In this document: positions 12,491 to 18,160 of the stretch, one piece after another
How the letters are laid out: each line of letters begins with the position of its first letter
Numbering within the stretch: the stretch's first letter is position 1
Source: Hymenobacter sp. 15J16-1T3B
Lineage (GTDB): Bacteria; Bacteroidota; Bacteroidia; Cytophagales; Hymenobacteraceae
Assembly: GCF_020711235.1 (NCBI RefSeq)
Contig: NZ_JAJFAV010000009.1
Coordinates: forward strand, 124,001-188,000
Reading direction: 5' to 3'
DNA: 64,000 nucleotides
Notes under the pieces: model-generated
What the model saw: only the letters and a program-made list of their open reading frames with translations
Database searches by the model: none
Told to the model about the DNA's origin: nothing
Translations under genes and position numbers: made by a program

Positions 12491-13609
12491 TTACTCGTGC
12501 TGCGACAACACTTTGTGTCCGCCTTTCAGCAGATAGGCGTCGCGCTTGAACAGCTCCACGTCGGCCTGGACCATGTCTTTTACCAGGGCAGGCAGGTCGT
12601 ACTTAGGCATCCAGTTCAGCTTCTCCTTGCACTTGGTCGGGTCGCCGATGAGCAGGTCCACCTCGGTCGGGCGGAAGTAGGTGGGGTCAACCTCGATGAC
12701 CACCTGCCCCTCGGGCAGCTGGTAGTCAGGGTTGTGGCACGCCACTACCACGCCTTTCTCGTCTACACCCTCGCCTCGGAAGGCTACCTCCACGCCGACT
12801 TCGGCAAAGGCCATGCGCACAAAGTCGCGCACGGTGGTGGTTACACCGGTGGCAATGACGAAGTCCTCGGGCGTATCCTGTTGCAGAATAAGCCACATAG
12901 CTTCCACGTAGTCTTTGGCGTGGCCCCAGTCGCGCTTGGCGGAGAGGTTACCCAGGGCAATGTGCTTTTGCATGCCCAGCACAATCTGCGCTACGCCGCG
13001 GGTGATTTTGCGGGTGACGAAGGTTTCGCCGCGCAGCGGGCTTTCGTGGTTGAAGAGGATGCCGTTAACCGCAAACATGCCGTAGGCTTCGCGGTAGTTG
13101 ACCGTAATCCAGTAGCCGTAGAGCTTGGCCACGGCGTAGGGCGAGCGGGGGTAAAACGGCGTGGTTTCGCGCTGCGGCACTTCCTGCACCAGCCCGTACA
13201 GCTCCGAGGTCGAAGCCTGGTAGATCTTCGTTTTTTTAGTGAGCCCCAGCAAACGCACGGCCTCCAGGATGCGCAGCGTGCCGATGCCGTCCACGTTGGC
13301 CACGTACTCGGGCGTGTCGAACGACACCTTCACGTGCGACATGGCGCCGAGGTTGTAAATCTCGTCGGGCTGCACTTCTTGAATGACGCGAATCAAGTTG
13401 GTCGAGTCCGTCAGGTCGCCGTAGTGGTTGGTGAAGTTCGGGCTCTTATTGCCCTCTTCGTCGGTAAGCAGGTGGTCGATGCGGTCGGTATTGAACAAGG
13501 ACGAACGACGCTTCAGGCCGTGTACCTCGTAACCCTTTCCCAACAGAAGTTCTGCTAGGTAAGCGCCATCTTGACCCGTAATACCGGTGATGAGTGCTAC
13601 TTTTTTCAT
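12491..13609 (-). CDS. gmd: GDP-mannose 4,6-dehydratase
   Basis: The 372-residue short-chain dehydrogenase converts GDP-mannose to GDP-4-keto-6-deoxymannose. The nucleotide site is [14 protein letters not shown] near residues 8-20. TSELYG is at about 134-139 and the catalytic pair is Y158/K162 in PRSPYAVAK. Length and motifs fit Gmd closely, including the early arginines [10 protein letters not shown]. The ATG at 13609 is preferred to the upstream one because family similarity begins at MKKVALITG. It supplies the GDP-sugar branch that probably uses the SDR, aminotransferase and acyltransferases upstream. Confidence 0.95.
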
Positions 13610-13721
13610 AAAAGAAGTTGGTGGCAGCCTTGTGTCCGGCCGCAAGCAATTCGGTGAGAGTTCAAATGCCCGGTTATTTCCTCCGCGCTAGTGCGCAGGT
13701 TCAGCACGGGCCATGACCTTG

Positions 13722-13782: not shown

Positions 13783-14784
13783 CTAGCTGAGCACTTTGGT
13801 CAATTGATCCGACTTGTAGTAAAATTCCGTCGGGTGCTCTGCATTATAAGTGGCCATGAACTGGTCGCATACGTCGAAAGCCGTAGCCAGTTTAGCCATA
13901 TTATCGGTCGGCATCTCACCAGTAAAACTGGTAGTGCGTCCCTGGTTACCCTGGTACTGCTTCAGGCGCAAGAGCGAATACAAGACGCGCTTGGCCGGGC
14001 GGATGGGCTTTTTAATTGCGTCCATCCAACCAGATTTGTGTTTGACAAAATCACCAACGCTGTCGCTGATGCTTTTGTCGTAATAGAAGCGCATCCGGTT
14101 AGCTTCCAAGGCACTGGCCTTTTGGGCTTTGCCCTGGTTCATCACCCGAAAATTGCTCTGCGGATTCTCGATGCGCACGCTGAGCATGGCAGTGCTCCAA
14201 GCCAAGTTGACGTTCAGGCTGGTGATGCGGTAGGTAAACTCGGTGTCGACCTGCACTACGCCGGTATGGAACAGGCCGGTCAAGGCTAATGACTTACGAC
14301 GGATAATCAGTGGCAGGCCAATCATCCAAACCACGGCCTTGCTGTTGAGCCAACGTTGGAAGTTATCGGCCACATCGTCGTAAATGGTGGCTTTGCCCAA
14401 GTCTTCCAAATGAATCAGGCCGGTGTTGCCCGATAGCACGTCAATCTCGGGGTGGGCCAGCATGAACGATTTGGCCTCTCGGATGGCGGGGTAGCAGAAA
14501 GCGTCGTCGTCGGTAATAATCTTGATCAGTTCCCCCCGCGCCATGAGCATGCATTTGTTGAAGCCGTGCGCTTCTCCTTTGTCACGCTCCGAAACAAACT
14601 GCTGAATCTTGCCAGCTTCGTAGAGCCCGCGCAAGTATTCCGGAGTGCCGTCTTTGCTGCCGCCGTCGGCCACCACAATTTCCTCGTCGGGCTGCCGGGC
14701 CGCAATCAGCCGCTCCAGTACCTGCTGCAGGTAGGGCAATTTGTTGTAGGTCGTCAGAACGTACGATAACGTGTACTCAGCCAT
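13783..14784 (-). CDS. GT2 glycosyltransferase
   Basis: The 333-residue GT-A enzyme starts MAEYTLSYVLTTYNKLPYLQ, with VVADGGSKDGTPEYL and IKIITDDDAFCYPAI (metal-binding DDD). The open frame extends 70 codons upstream into the acyltransferase gene, but that part is not protein-like, so the ATG at 14784 is chosen. The start lies 8 bases after the stop of the upstream acyltransferase, a tight operon arrangement. Confidence 0.85.
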   Translation of the reverse strand: MAEYTLSYVLTTYNKLPYLQQVLERLIAARQPDEEIVVADGGSKDGTPEYLRGLYEAGKIQQFVSERDKGEAHGFNKCMLMARGELIKIITDDDAFCYPAIREAKSFMLAHPEIDVLSGNTGLIHLEDLGKATIYDDVADNFQRWLNSKAVVWMIGLPLIIRRKSLALTGLFHTGVVQVDTEFTYRITSLNVNLAWSTAMLSVRIENPQSNFRVMNQGKAQKASALEANRMRFYYDKSISDSVGDFVKHKSGWMDAIKKPIRPAKRVLYSLLRLKQYQGNQGRTTSFTGEMPTDNMAKLATAFDVCDQFMATYNAEHPTEFYYKSDQLTKVLS

Positions 14785-14792
14785 GCCCTTAT

Positions 14793-15362
14793 TTAGTATC
14801 CCAGTTTTTTGGCGTATTCCAGCATCTTTTCCCGCGGCCGCACCTTCACCGGCCGCGCCGGCACGCCCACGTAGATGGTCCACGGCTCGGTGTCCTTGGT
14901 TACTAGCGAACAAGCCCCAATCACACAACCTTCGCCAATAGTCACGTTGGGCATCACCACGGCATTGGTGCCAATGCCCGAAAAACGGCCGCATCGGATG
15001 GTGCTGAAATCGACGGTGTCACGGTACTCATCCGGTACCGTGACACTGGTGAAGCCCTCGCCCATAAACCGATCTGAACCGCACAGCAGACGGCTCCCAG
15101 CTGCAATGCTAACGAAGTGCTCTACCACCACCCGACTTTGCTCCCCTCCGATGACGGTGATGTAGGGGGCGATGTGGATGTAGTCGCCGATTTCGGCGGC
15201 GGTGGTCAGGTAGAAGCCCGAGTCGATGGCCACGTGGCTGCCCACGGTGACCAGCTGCGGCCGGCGGATTTCCACGTTGGCGCTGATGAACACGTCGTCG
15301 CCGCAGCTCTTCAGCAGCGACTTGTCGTACTGGGCTGATTGAATGGACTTGTCGCTGGTCAT
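14793..15362 (-). CDS. Left-handed beta-helix acyltransferase, copy 1 of a mosaic tandem pair
   Basis: The 189-residue protein has hexapeptide repeats through most of its length (for example VGSHVAIDSG, IGDYIHIAP, IGTNAVVMPNVTIGEGCVIG) and ends like sugar O- or N-acetyltransferases with YVGVPARPVKVRPREKML. It probably acetylates a sugar nucleotide or a lipid-linked sugar. Its first 65 or so residues and its C-terminal stretch are almost identical at DNA level to the upstream copy (15406-15984), while the middle 85 residues differ at about half the positions with no length change. The specific substrate is unknown; the GDP-6-deoxyhexose genes upstream are the likely context. Confidence 0.87.
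   Translation of the reverse strand: MTSDKSIQSAQYDKSLLKSCGDDVFISANVEIRRPQLVTVGSHVAIDSGFYLTTAAEIGDYIHIAPYITVIGGEQSRVVVEHFVSIAAGSRLLCGSDRFMGEGFTSVTVPDEYRDTVDFSTIRCGRFSGIGTNAVVMPNVTIGEGCVIGACSLVTKDTEPWTIYVGVPARPVKVRPREKMLEYAKKLGY
14809..14892. repeat. 3'-end repeat block of tandem acyltransferases, partner at 15428-15511
   Basis: The 84 bases match 15428-15511 with one mismatch, encoding the shared C-terminal part of both proteins. The offset is 619 bases, identical to that of the 5' block. Confidence 0.9.
15148..15343. repeat. 5'-end repeat block of tandem acyltransferases, partner at 15767-15962
   Basis: These 196 bases are identical to 15767-15962 on reading both copies side by side. They encode the common N-terminal part. 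The block stops abruptly on both sides: outside it, at 14893-15147 versus 15512-15766, the two genes diverge strongly. Confidence 0.92.
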
Positions 15363-15405
15363 TGCCGGTAAGTGTGACTAGAGTCAGTAGCTACCAACCA
15401 GGGGC

Positions 15406-15984
15406 CTATACGTCGTACCCCATTTCCTTGGCGTATTCCAGCATCTTTTCGCGCGGCCGCACCTTCACCGGCCGCGCCGGCACGCCCACGTAGATGGTCC
15501 ACGGCTCGGTGCTTTTGTTCACCAACGAGCCTGCGCCAATTACACTGCCTTCTGCCAAAGTCACCCCGGGCATTACCATGACATTGGTCCCGACGCTGGC
15601 AAAATTTTCAAAAATCACCGGTGCGATGTGCACGTTGTCACGGTATTTCTCCGGGATGGTAGGCCCAATGAAACCATGTCCCAGGTGCTCGTCGCTACCG
15701 CAGATAATGCGGCTACCGGCAGCAATCGTGCTGAAATGCCCCATTTTCAACAGCCCTTGCGGCCCGCCGATGACGGTGATGTAGGGGGCGATGTGGATGT
15801 AGTCGCCGATTTCGGCGGCGGTGGTCAGGTAGAAGCCCGAGTCGATGGCCACGTGGCTGCCCACGGTGACCAGCTGCGGCCGGCGGATTTCCACGTTGGC
15901 GCTGATGAACACGTCGTCGCCGCAGCTCTTCAGCAGCGACTTGTCGTACTGGGCTGATTGAAGTTTTTCGCCAGATTGGTTCAT
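15406..15984 (-). CDS. Left-handed beta-helix acyltransferase, copy 2 of a mosaic tandem pair
   Basis: The 192-residue paralogue of the gene at 14793-15362 has the same hexapeptide-repeat fold and the same ends. Its central block reads PQGLLKMGHFSTIAAGS to VGTNVMVMPGVTLAEGSVIG instead of the copy-1 version. Both genes are intact, with proper starts and stops. The central coils of such trimers form the active-site cleft, so the two enzymes may share oligomerisation surfaces but act on different acceptors. That last point is inference from the pattern of identity. Confidence 0.87.
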   Translation of the reverse strand: MNQSGEKLQSAQYDKSLLKSCGDDVFISANVEIRRPQLVTVGSHVAIDSGFYLTTAAEIGDYIHIAPYITVIGGPQGLLKMGHFSTIAAGSRIICGSDEHLGHGFIGPTIPEKYRDNVHIAPVIFENFASVGTNVMVMPGVTLAEGSVIGAGSLVNKSTEPWTIYVGVPARPVKVRPREKMLEYAKEMGYDV

Positions 15985-16041
15985 AAGGAGTCGGTAATTT
16001 TTAGGGGAGGAAGTGAAAAGTCCGCGCGGCAGCGCGCAATT

Positions 16042-16974
16042 CTAGTAAGGAAAAACCGACTCGTAGTAGGCAATGGTCTTGGCAATGCCCTCCTCGAATT
16101 CCGTGAACTTAAAGTCCGGAAACACCTGCCGGAAGCGCGTGTCGTCCATCACTTTCTTGGGCGCCCCGTCGGGCTTGCTGTGGTCCCACACCACCTTGCC
16201 CTGGTAGTCGAATTTGGCTTGGATGATATCGACCAATTCCTTCACGCTCAGCCCGTCGTTCTGAGCCACGTTGAGCACCTGCTCCAGGCCTTTGCGGTCG
16301 GGCTGCAGCAATACCTGCCACACCAGCCGGGCAAAATCCTTGGCGTAAAGCCATTCGCGGATGGCCACCCCGGTGCCCCAGATGGGCAACTCGGGCTGGT
16401 TGATTTTCTCGGCCTTGACGAACTTCGAAATCAACGCGTTGAGGGCGTGGGCCTTGTTCGGGTCGGTCGAGTCGAAAGGGCCGTACATGTTCGGGGTGAG
16501 CAGGTTGATGCTGCGCACTGCGTACTGCATCTGGAAGCACTCGGCGGTGGCCCAGAGCAAACGACGCGTGGCGCCGTAGCTCAGCACCGAGCGGTGCAGG
16601 TGCCCGTCCCACCACTCGTCCTCGCGGAACAGGTCGGCTTTGGCCGGGTAAGCGCAGTTGGCAATGGGGTTGATGACAATGGCCCGCGGGCAGGCGTGCG
16701 CCACGGCCTCGTACATGCCCAGGATCATGCGCGTGTTGTCGGCCACCACGGTAGCGGCCTGCTCGGTCACGTAATTGAGGCTCCCGACGTGAGCGGCGCA
16801 GTTGATGACAAAATCCGGGCGGTGCTTTTGCAGAAACGCCGTGGTTTGCGCGGTGTCGCGCAGGTCCAGGCCGGTGCTCAGCGAAGCTTCAATGGGTTCT
16901 ACGCCGTTTTCGCGCAGCACCTGTGCCATGTTGTGGCCAACGAACCCGTTGGCGCCAAAAAGAACTACTTTCAT
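16042..16974 (-). CDS. NAD-dependent SDR epimerase/reductase, GDP-fucose-synthase-like
   Basis: The 310-residue extended SDR has the nucleotide site VVLFGANGFVGHN at residues 3-15, NCAAHVGS, the INPIANCAYP segment matching the SS.CIYP region of GDP-L-fucose synthase, NMYGPFDSTD, and WGTGVAIREWLYAKD. It is probably the next enzyme after Gmd, reducing or epimerising a GDP-4-keto-6-deoxy sugar. The catalytic pair is unusual: Y133 is followed by R137 (SYGATRR) where the family has YxxxK. The stop is 57 bases upstream of the acyltransferase pair on the same strand. Confidence 0.83.
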   Translation of the reverse strand: MKVVLFGANGFVGHNMAQVLRENGVEPIEASLSTGLDLRDTAQTTAFLQKHRPDFVINCAAHVGSLNYVTEQAATVVADNTRMILGMYEAVAHACPRAIVINPIANCAYPAKADLFREDEWWDGHLHRSVLSYGATRRLLWATAECFQMQYAVRSINLLTPNMYGPFDSTDPNKAHALNALISKFVKAEKINQPELPIWGTGVAIREWLYAKDFARLVWQVLLQPDRKGLEQVLNVAQNDGLSVKELVDIIQAKFDYQGKVVWDHSKPDGAPKKVMDDTRFRQVFPDFKFTEFEEGIAKTIAYYESVFPY

Positions 16975-16978
16975 ATGC

Positions 16979-18139
16979 TTACCAGCCTTGCTTGATGGCG
17001 TCCACGATGTAAGCTACTTGCTCCGCGGTCAGCGCATCGTGCAGCGGCACGTGAATCTGCGTTTCGTCGAAGCGGCGCTGGTTAACCAGCTCGTGGCGCT
17101 TGCCGCCAAACAGGGTATTCTTGTCAATGCCGTCGTGTACTACCGAGGAGGCCACGCCGCGGGATTTCAGGGCGCGAATAAATGCCAAGCGGTTCTCGAC
17201 GTGGAAGCCAAACAGCCAATTGGCGCTTTCCCGGTCCGTCTGGTGCACGAAATGCGTCAGGCCGGGCACGTTCTGCAGGCCTTCGCGGTACTGCTGCACG
17301 CGGGCGCGACGCACGTCCATCCGGTCCCAGAACCCTTCGAGGTTGGCCAAGCCCAAAGCGGCGGCGTAGTCGCTCAGGTGGTACTTGTAGCCCACGTCGG
17401 AGAGGTCGTACTCCCGCTCCCCTACTTCGTTCACGGGTGAATTGGCGCGGTCGATGCCAAACCAGCGGCGGCGGAACACTTCGCGGGCCTTCTCCGGGTC
17501 ACGGGCGCACAGGGCGCCGCCGTCGCCGGTGGTCAGGTGCTTGATGGCCTGGAAGCTGAAGCAGGTGAAGTCGGAGATGGAGCCAATGGCTTGGCCTTGG
17601 TAAGTGGCGCCCGGCGCGTGGGCCGCGTCCTCGATTACCAGCAGGTTGTGGCGCTCGGCAATGGCTTTGATTTCAGCCATGTCGCAGGGATACCCGCCCC
17701 AGTGCACGGCCATAATAGCCTTGGTGCGCGGCGTAATCCGGTGCTCGATGTCGGCCGGGTTGATGTTGCCGTTTTCGTAGTGAATATCGGCAAAGACCGG
17801 CTTGGCGCCGACCTGCACCACGCAGATGGCCGAGGCAATAAAGGTTTGGGGCGAGAGAATTACTTCGTCACCGGGGCCAACGCCGGCCACTTCCATGGCC
17901 AGGTGCAGGGCGCTGGTGCCGCTGTTCAGAGCGGCCGGATTGACCATGCCCAGATCGGAGCTCAAACGACTTTCAAACTCTTTAACCAATCGGCCTTCGC
18001 TGAGCATAGTGGTGGCCAGCACATCGGTCACTCGCTGCGTTGCGGAAGGGTGTACAAACGTACTGAAGAGGCTAATGGGGTTGCCAGTGGGCAGGTTTGC
18101 GGTGCCAGCAGGCAGCGGTGAGTTGGTAGTTCCAGCCAT
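16979..18139 (-). CDS. DegT/DnrJ/EryC1/StrS sugar aminotransferase
   Basis: The 386-residue PLP enzyme has NSGTSALHLAMEV, SPQTFIASA, the PLP-contacting VIEDAAHAPGA (D171) and the Schiff-base lysine K200 in SFQAIKHLTTGDGG. The lysine rules out a ColD-type dehydratase, which has His there. It is expected to transfer an amino group from glutamate to a keto-deoxy sugar nucleotide. With gmd and the SDR beside it, a GDP-4-keto-6-deoxyhexose is a plausible substrate, but this is inferred. The ATG at 18139 sits 22 bases after a TATCTTTG promoter element, which supports this start over the upstream one. It ends 4 bases before the SDR start. Confidence 0.87.
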   Translation of the reverse strand: MAGTTNSPLPAGTANLPTGNPISLFSTFVHPSATQRVTDVLATTMLSEGRLVKEFESRLSSDLGMVNPAALNSGTSALHLAMEVAGVGPGDEVILSPQTFIASAICVVQVGAKPVFADIHYENGNINPADIEHRITPRTKAIMAVHWGGYPCDMAEIKAIAERHNLLVIEDAAHAPGATYQGQAIGSISDFTCFSFQAIKHLTTGDGGALCARDPEKAREVFRRRWFGIDRANSPVNEVGEREYDLSDVGYKYHLSDYAAALGLANLEGFWDRMDVRRARVQQYREGLQNVPGLTHFVHQTDRESANWLFGFHVENRLAFIRALKSRGVASSVVHDGIDKNTLFGGKRHELVNQRRFDETQIHVPLHDALTAEQVAYIVDAIKQGW

Positions 18140-18160
18140 ATAGCTAGTTGAATGAAGCCG

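Follow-up and report, generated by a model that had tools for sequence, protein, structure and literature searches.

How did two neighbouring genes come to share identical or nearly identical ends on either side of a middle in which they differ at about half of their residues? The genes, here called A and B, lie in a 64-kb stretch of Hymenobacter DNA (the window, to which all unprefixed positions refer). They stand head to tail on the minus strand, where B precedes A across an intergenic gap of 43 bases (Table 1). An earlier note on this DNA had reported a block of 196 exactly shared bases and one of 84 bases with a single mismatch, both at an offset of 619, and its coordinates and numbers were correct; the sole mismatch of the 3′ block falls at 14832. 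Over the 255 nucleotides that separate the two blocks (14893-15147) the genes stay in register with no indels, the DNA identity of their middles is 59%, and codons 1-8 are also different. Beyond the two repeat families formed by this pair, the window has no direct repeats of at least 60 nucleotides.

Table 1. Features of the A/B pair and of the genes around it (window positions).
Feature	Position	Strand	Basis and content
gmd, GDP-mannose 4,6-dehydratase	12491..13612	-	TIGR01472, 573.8 bits (cut-off 415)
Family 2 glycosyltransferase, directly downstream of A	13783..14781	-	PF00535
Gene A: putative AntD-like hexapeptide N-acyltransferase, A subfamily, 189 aa	14793..15362	-	ORF; PF00132; nearest solved structures AntD; A-type middle
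3′ block in A, probably converted	14809..14892	-	83/84 bases as in B, offset 619
Diverged middle of A, codons 74-153	14904..15143	-	99/240 nt and 41/80 residues differ from B; A state at 20/20 diagnostic sites; Asp97
Core of A middle, codons 74-129	14976..15143	-	holds Asp97, counterpart of AntD Asp94
5′ block in A, probably converted	15148..15343	-	196/196 bases as in B, offset 619
Gene B: putative AntD-like hexapeptide N-acyltransferase, B subfamily, 192 aa	15406..15984	-	ORF; PF00132; nearest solved structures AntD; B-type middle
3′ block in B, probably converted	15428..15511	-	83/84 bases as in A, offset 619
Diverged middle of B, A-frame codons 74-153	15523..15762	-	B state at 17/20 diagnostic sites (2 A, 1 other); Asp98, counterpart of AntD Asp94
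5′ block in B, probably converted	15767..15962	-	196/196 bases as in A, offset 619
GDP-fucose-synthase-like SDR, immediately upstream of B	16042..16974	-	NF047922, 148.3 bits (below cut-off 500); PDB GDP-fucose synthases
DegT/DnrJ/EryC1 sugar aminotransferase, start codon uncertain	16979..18148	-	PF01041; PDB sugar aminotransferases including perosamine synthetases

Both products are hexapeptide (left-handed β-helix) proteins, for which no NCBIfam model reached its cut-off among the best 25 of 35 and the best 25 of 31 matches. By sequence, the nearest solved relative of both is AntD from Bacillus cereus (E 2.8e-30 for B, 4.3e-28 for A), and AntD is also nearest by fold (Foldseek; 31% identity, TM 0.78) to a structure model made for A, the best of five with a pLDDT of 80.6, the remaining four having 51-60. 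The AntD entries (PDB 3vbi-3vbp) carry titles that name an N-acyltransferase solved with dTDP-4-amino-4,6-dideoxyglucose. In the alignment, read with the mutant titles of these entries, AntD Asp94 corresponds to Asp97 of A and Asp98 of B; Asp97 is invariant in 23 of 23 aligned rows, which include six of the nine MAG rows (L041, L042, L044, L045, L046, L049). Sequence, fold and this active-site counterpart together argue that A and B are AntD-like left-handed β-helix N-acyltransferases, and the position of the Asp inside the spared middle agrees, at the level of alignment, with a middle that carries the active site; the earlier note had placed the substrate cleft there.

Around the shared Asp the two types part ways. 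The adjoining residues 98, 99 and 102 differ by type, and the GPTIP loop common to AntD and B reads TSVTVP in the A type. These loop and near-Asp differences fit two specificities, without proving them. Some features set both proteins apart from AntD: its Ser84, also mutated in PDB entries, is Ala in A and B alike, and AntD uses a dTDP-sugar whereas the gmd neighbour here suggests a GDP-sugar. The genes surrounding the pair also include a flippase. From the context of gmd and the DegT aminotransferase we predict acylation of the amino group of a nucleotide-linked 4-amino-4,6-dideoxysugar, and the cluster likely makes a GDP-4-amino-4,6-dideoxyhexose in acylated form, destined for a surface polysaccharide.

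The pair itself occurs in relatives. A search of 204 genomes of the family with A gave matches at E 1e-40 or better in 22 genomes, at 25 places; alignment and the tree of the middles placed the A type in 21 of these genomes, the B type in four and both in three, namely the window's genome, Hymenobacter sp. CRA2 (G006) and G039. An order-wide sample searched with B matched in 8 of 390 genomes, the window's own included. In all three genomes that hold both types the order is the same: aminotransferase, SDR, B, A, glycosyltransferase, gmd. Synteny was compared in eight genomes, a part of the A-only ones among them, and the slot between SDR and glycosyltransferase holds B-A in these three, A alone in four (G002, G003, G023, G051) and B alone in H. 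terrenus (G131). Beside the A-only slot of G051, gmd matches as two overlapping pieces (L055:5189-6332), suggestive of a frameshift or of an error in the assembly.

Along a single gene, likeness then points in two directions. The middles are 79-80% identical in amino acids to their own CRA2 orthologues, as against 49% between the window neighbours, while the 5′ block is 99.5% identical in nucleotides inside the genome and 83-84% identical to the orthologues. Synonymous differences per site follow the same course: 1/48 (5′), 39/58 (middle) and 4/25 (3′) for the window pair, 22/48, 42/59 and 14/27 for A against its orthologue in CRA2, and 22/47, 41/57 and 14/24 for B against its own. Third-position identity within the pair is 0.98 in the 5′ and 0.88 in the 3′ block, values reached by none of 55 cross-genome A × B comparisons, a background that rests on only three B rows and excludes G142, G367_B and the window's own rows.

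Trees of the separate regions, which with the alignments and the list of third-position GC content (GC3) are where the MAG rows L041-L049 were used, gave conflicting placements. In the tree of the middles the A and B types split at 97/100 and the window's B groups with that of CRA2 (91/90), while the middle of the window's A sits on a long terminal branch (0.39) whose position inside the A clade is poorly fixed. The tree of the 5′ block joins the two window copies as sisters (96/94). The 3′ tree is weak (84/73) and points to no direction of copying in that tract. AU tests, run on A/B sets that excluded G142 and G367_B, rejected a clade of the window pair for the middle (p 1.3e-5), as they did the pair clades of G006 (2.1e-6) and G039 (2.4e-4), and rejected a B-type clade for the 3′ block (p 0.019). 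For the 5′ block they did not reject a clade made up of the B types with the window's A left outside (p 0.39); the 5′ tree names no donor because the shared sequence sits at the junction of A and B, where splitting it costs little. Twenty-four nucleotide sites are diagnostic of A versus B (G142 was left out of this count and G367_B used for identity means only), 20 of them in the middle and four in the 5′ block. At these four the two copies agree, with the A state at codon 48 and the B state at codons 50, 64 and 65, and because of these mixed states the 5′ tract may itself be composite.

We conclude that A and B are very probably an old pair whose ends were recently homogenized by gene conversion, the middle being spared, because the middles match their CRA2 orthologues while the 5′ block has one synonymous difference in 48 sites where the orthologues have 22. 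In sequence, this is a paralogue tract more alike than either copy is to its orthologue, the usual sign of gene conversion, and a duplication older than the tract is indicated by the presence of this pair at this slot in both G006 and G039, by the split of the types and by the AU test on the middle. The earlier note had offered conversion of the ends of an old pair as one of two origins, and it is favoured by the middles, which are orthologous to one and the same pair of genes in CRA2 and G039, with order and slot unchanged.

We suggest the following course of events. A and B would be old paralogues, both nucleotide-sugar N-acyltransferases of the AntD kind, flanked within a surface-polysaccharide cluster by an aminotransferase/SDR pair on one side and a glycosyltransferase on the other, and homologous recombination between the in-register copies would recently have transferred the first third of the gene and its final sixth. 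Homologous recombination of in-register direct repeats requires high identity and halts at a diverged core. The middle may have been spared by being too diverged to recombine, or by the loss of one of two substrate specificities that overwriting would bring, or by both. We infer the recombination machinery as the agent; A and B would act on two different substrates or with two acyl donors, and selection would be a cause of the spared middle.

The second origin proposed in the earlier note was a recent duplication followed by replacement of the central cassette, taken here as a tandem duplication in which one copy recombined with a gene of another lineage. Identical ends and a foreign middle would be predicted by it, and the long, loosely placed branch of the A middle is in keeping with it, but CRA2 and G039 have orthologous middles in the same B-A order and slot, the B middle groups with that of CRA2, codons 1-8 differ and the SGEKL start of B is common to the CRA2 B gene, which is unexpected from a fresh copy, and the replacement would call for two exact junctions within a single gene. 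We therefore regard this origin as very unlikely, although another A-type middle may have been imported into gene A. Nor do the data bear out the idea of cassette exchange as a route to new specificity: they show two old middles held apart and ends exchanged. Simple recent duplication is ruled out by the same-slot pairs in relatives, the tree of the middles and the AU test (p 1.3e-5).

A further possibility, which we consider highly improbable, is that some third, external gene rich in GC, such as a resident gene of the A type, supplied the ends of both genes, that the middles came from an imported cassette, and that later exchange equalized the ends. This would accord with the high GC3 of the 5′ block (0.94-0.95, versus 0.61-0.62 in the middles), with the closest nucleotide match of that block outside the genome, the A gene of G003 (0.86), and with the identity to G003 of the aminotransferase (68%) and glycosyltransferase (70%), lower than in most outer genes (84-95%), although one of these, GT8425, is at 70% as well. 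However, the G003 gene is without the B-type residues of the 5′ block at codons 50, 64 and 65, and exchange inside the genome would still be required, so that an external donor adds a step to conversion and does not replace it.

Constraint on the protein or on synonymous sites, making the ends alike in all members without conversion, can be given virtually no credence: protein-level conservation is indeed higher in the ends (pN 0.14, 0.31 and 0.16 for 5′, middle and 3′ in 77 cross-genome A-B pairs, from rows that exclude G142 and G367_B and keep the window's own), but pS in the same pairs is nearly equal across regions (0.72, 0.73 and 0.71), which refutes it. Against constraint at synonymous sites, named in the earlier note as a possible refutation, stands the 5′ block of the window pair, with a pS of 0.02 (1/48) where the cross-genome comparisons have a mean of 0.72 and a minimum of 0.30 and the CRA2 orthologues give 0.45 and 0.48. 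Chance is ruled out by column shuffles (25 rows without G367_B, 346 polymorphic sites; the accompanying list of A/B diagnostic sites also leaves out G142), in which 0 of 10000 reached the 116 polymorphic sites that are identical in one run between A and B, the 99th percentile being 23, and 0 of 10000 the 3′ run of 31 sites in codons 74-187 alone. Assembly collapse is an unlikely cause of the identical ends, since collapse loses a copy and here there are two, with distinct middles and flanks, and since the two CRA2 copies differ by 16% within the 5′ block, too much for an assembler to merge. The window pair comes from one assembly of one strain, analyzed as assembled sequence.

One feature of the pair is not predicted by a single conversion event. 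GC3 in A/B is 0.94/0.95 for the 5′ block and 0.85/0.88 for the 3′ block but falls to 0.61/0.62 for the middles; in CRA2 it is flat (0.71-0.77). The end-middle contrast in the window exceeds all 593 overlapping contrasts in a sample of 13 genes near the locus (maximum 0.31). Third-position changes from GC to AT number 14 at 32 GC sites in the A middle (against 19 A rows), 10 at 33 in the B middle (against the B gene of CRA2 and G039_2), and 1 at 31 or 1 at 39, depending on the reference set, in the 5′ block; compared with the A rows over all codon positions, the 5′ block has not gained GC (3 AT-to-GC changes, 5 GC-to-AT). GC-biased conversion is proposed for bacteria in PMC4450053. We do not accept it as a full explanation of the split, because the middle of the single-copy G003 A gene has a GC3 of 0.94, CRA2 is flat, and the 3′ rise in G039 is small at most; the GC-rich middle of that single-copy gene makes an imported cassette an equal candidate.

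Older and weaker end tracts may exist in the relatives. Against the background of 55 comparisons described above, third-position identity is raised in the G006 pair over codons 9-73 (0.71; background maximum 0.60) and in the G039 pair over codons 154-187 (0.68; maximum 0.56) and 130-175 (0.76; maximum 0.63). The margin is thin in smaller parts: 1 of 55 reaches the pair in codons 46-73 of G006 and in codons 130-153 of G039. Codons 74-113 and 114-129 are at background level in all three pairs, with one partial exception, codons 114-129 of the window pair, whose 0.44 lies above the maximum of the window's B against 19 other A genes (0.38) and is reached by 20 of 55. Shuffles gave 1/10000 for the G006 pair and 202/10000 for the G039 pair, and fail to single out the latter because a cross-genome control, the window's B with the A gene of G003, gave 300/10000. 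From these sequences we judge the 5′ tract of G006 a fair case and the 3′ tract of G039 a weaker one, recurrence thus resting on two other pairs and three B rows. A bolder reading, which we think doubtful, is that the ends have been exchanged repeatedly, across three or more lineages, and have remained rich in GC, whereas the core (codons 74-129) has never been exchanged and drifts to AT at third positions in both window copies. If true, GC-biased gene conversion would be at work inside individual genes of bacteria, with selection preserving both enzyme specificities.

Duplicated genes of prokaryotes that evolve in concert are the subject of PMC6053082, where paralogues more alike than orthologues are attributed to recurrent gene conversion. 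The cases given there, which include the tandem pairs fla and mtrA, share with A and B the greater closeness of paralogues inside a genome; in the A/B pair, in contrast, only the ends are homogenized, with the middle at the level of the old split. Acyltransferases, a middle and conversion tracts go unmentioned in the text of PMC6053082, and among the papers on bacterial cases listed by literature searches we recognized no end-only conversion in acyltransferases, which is no claim of absence from print. The A/B pair is a clear case of recent, end-restricted conversion in an old enzyme pair, a new instance of an ordinary and well-known process. It separates parts of an enzyme by their mode of evolution, with ends that can be exchanged and a protected core, different in A and B, that surrounds the active-site Asp, and it names residues for testing substrate choice in an uncharacterized sugar pathway. 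Gene trees of such paralogues will hold conflicting histories along one gene.

Two minor observations concern the wider cluster. Next to the close orthologue of the window's flippase, G003 (L051:12327-16481) and G002 (L052:13017-17216) each have another flippase-like gene, with 53-55% identity to that of the window. Among the outer genes compared with G003, four are 90-95% identical and the others 84%, 87% and 70% (GT8425); from the 68-70% identity of the aminotransferase and glycosyltransferase, the inner block 13783-18148 may have been exchanged with another lineage.
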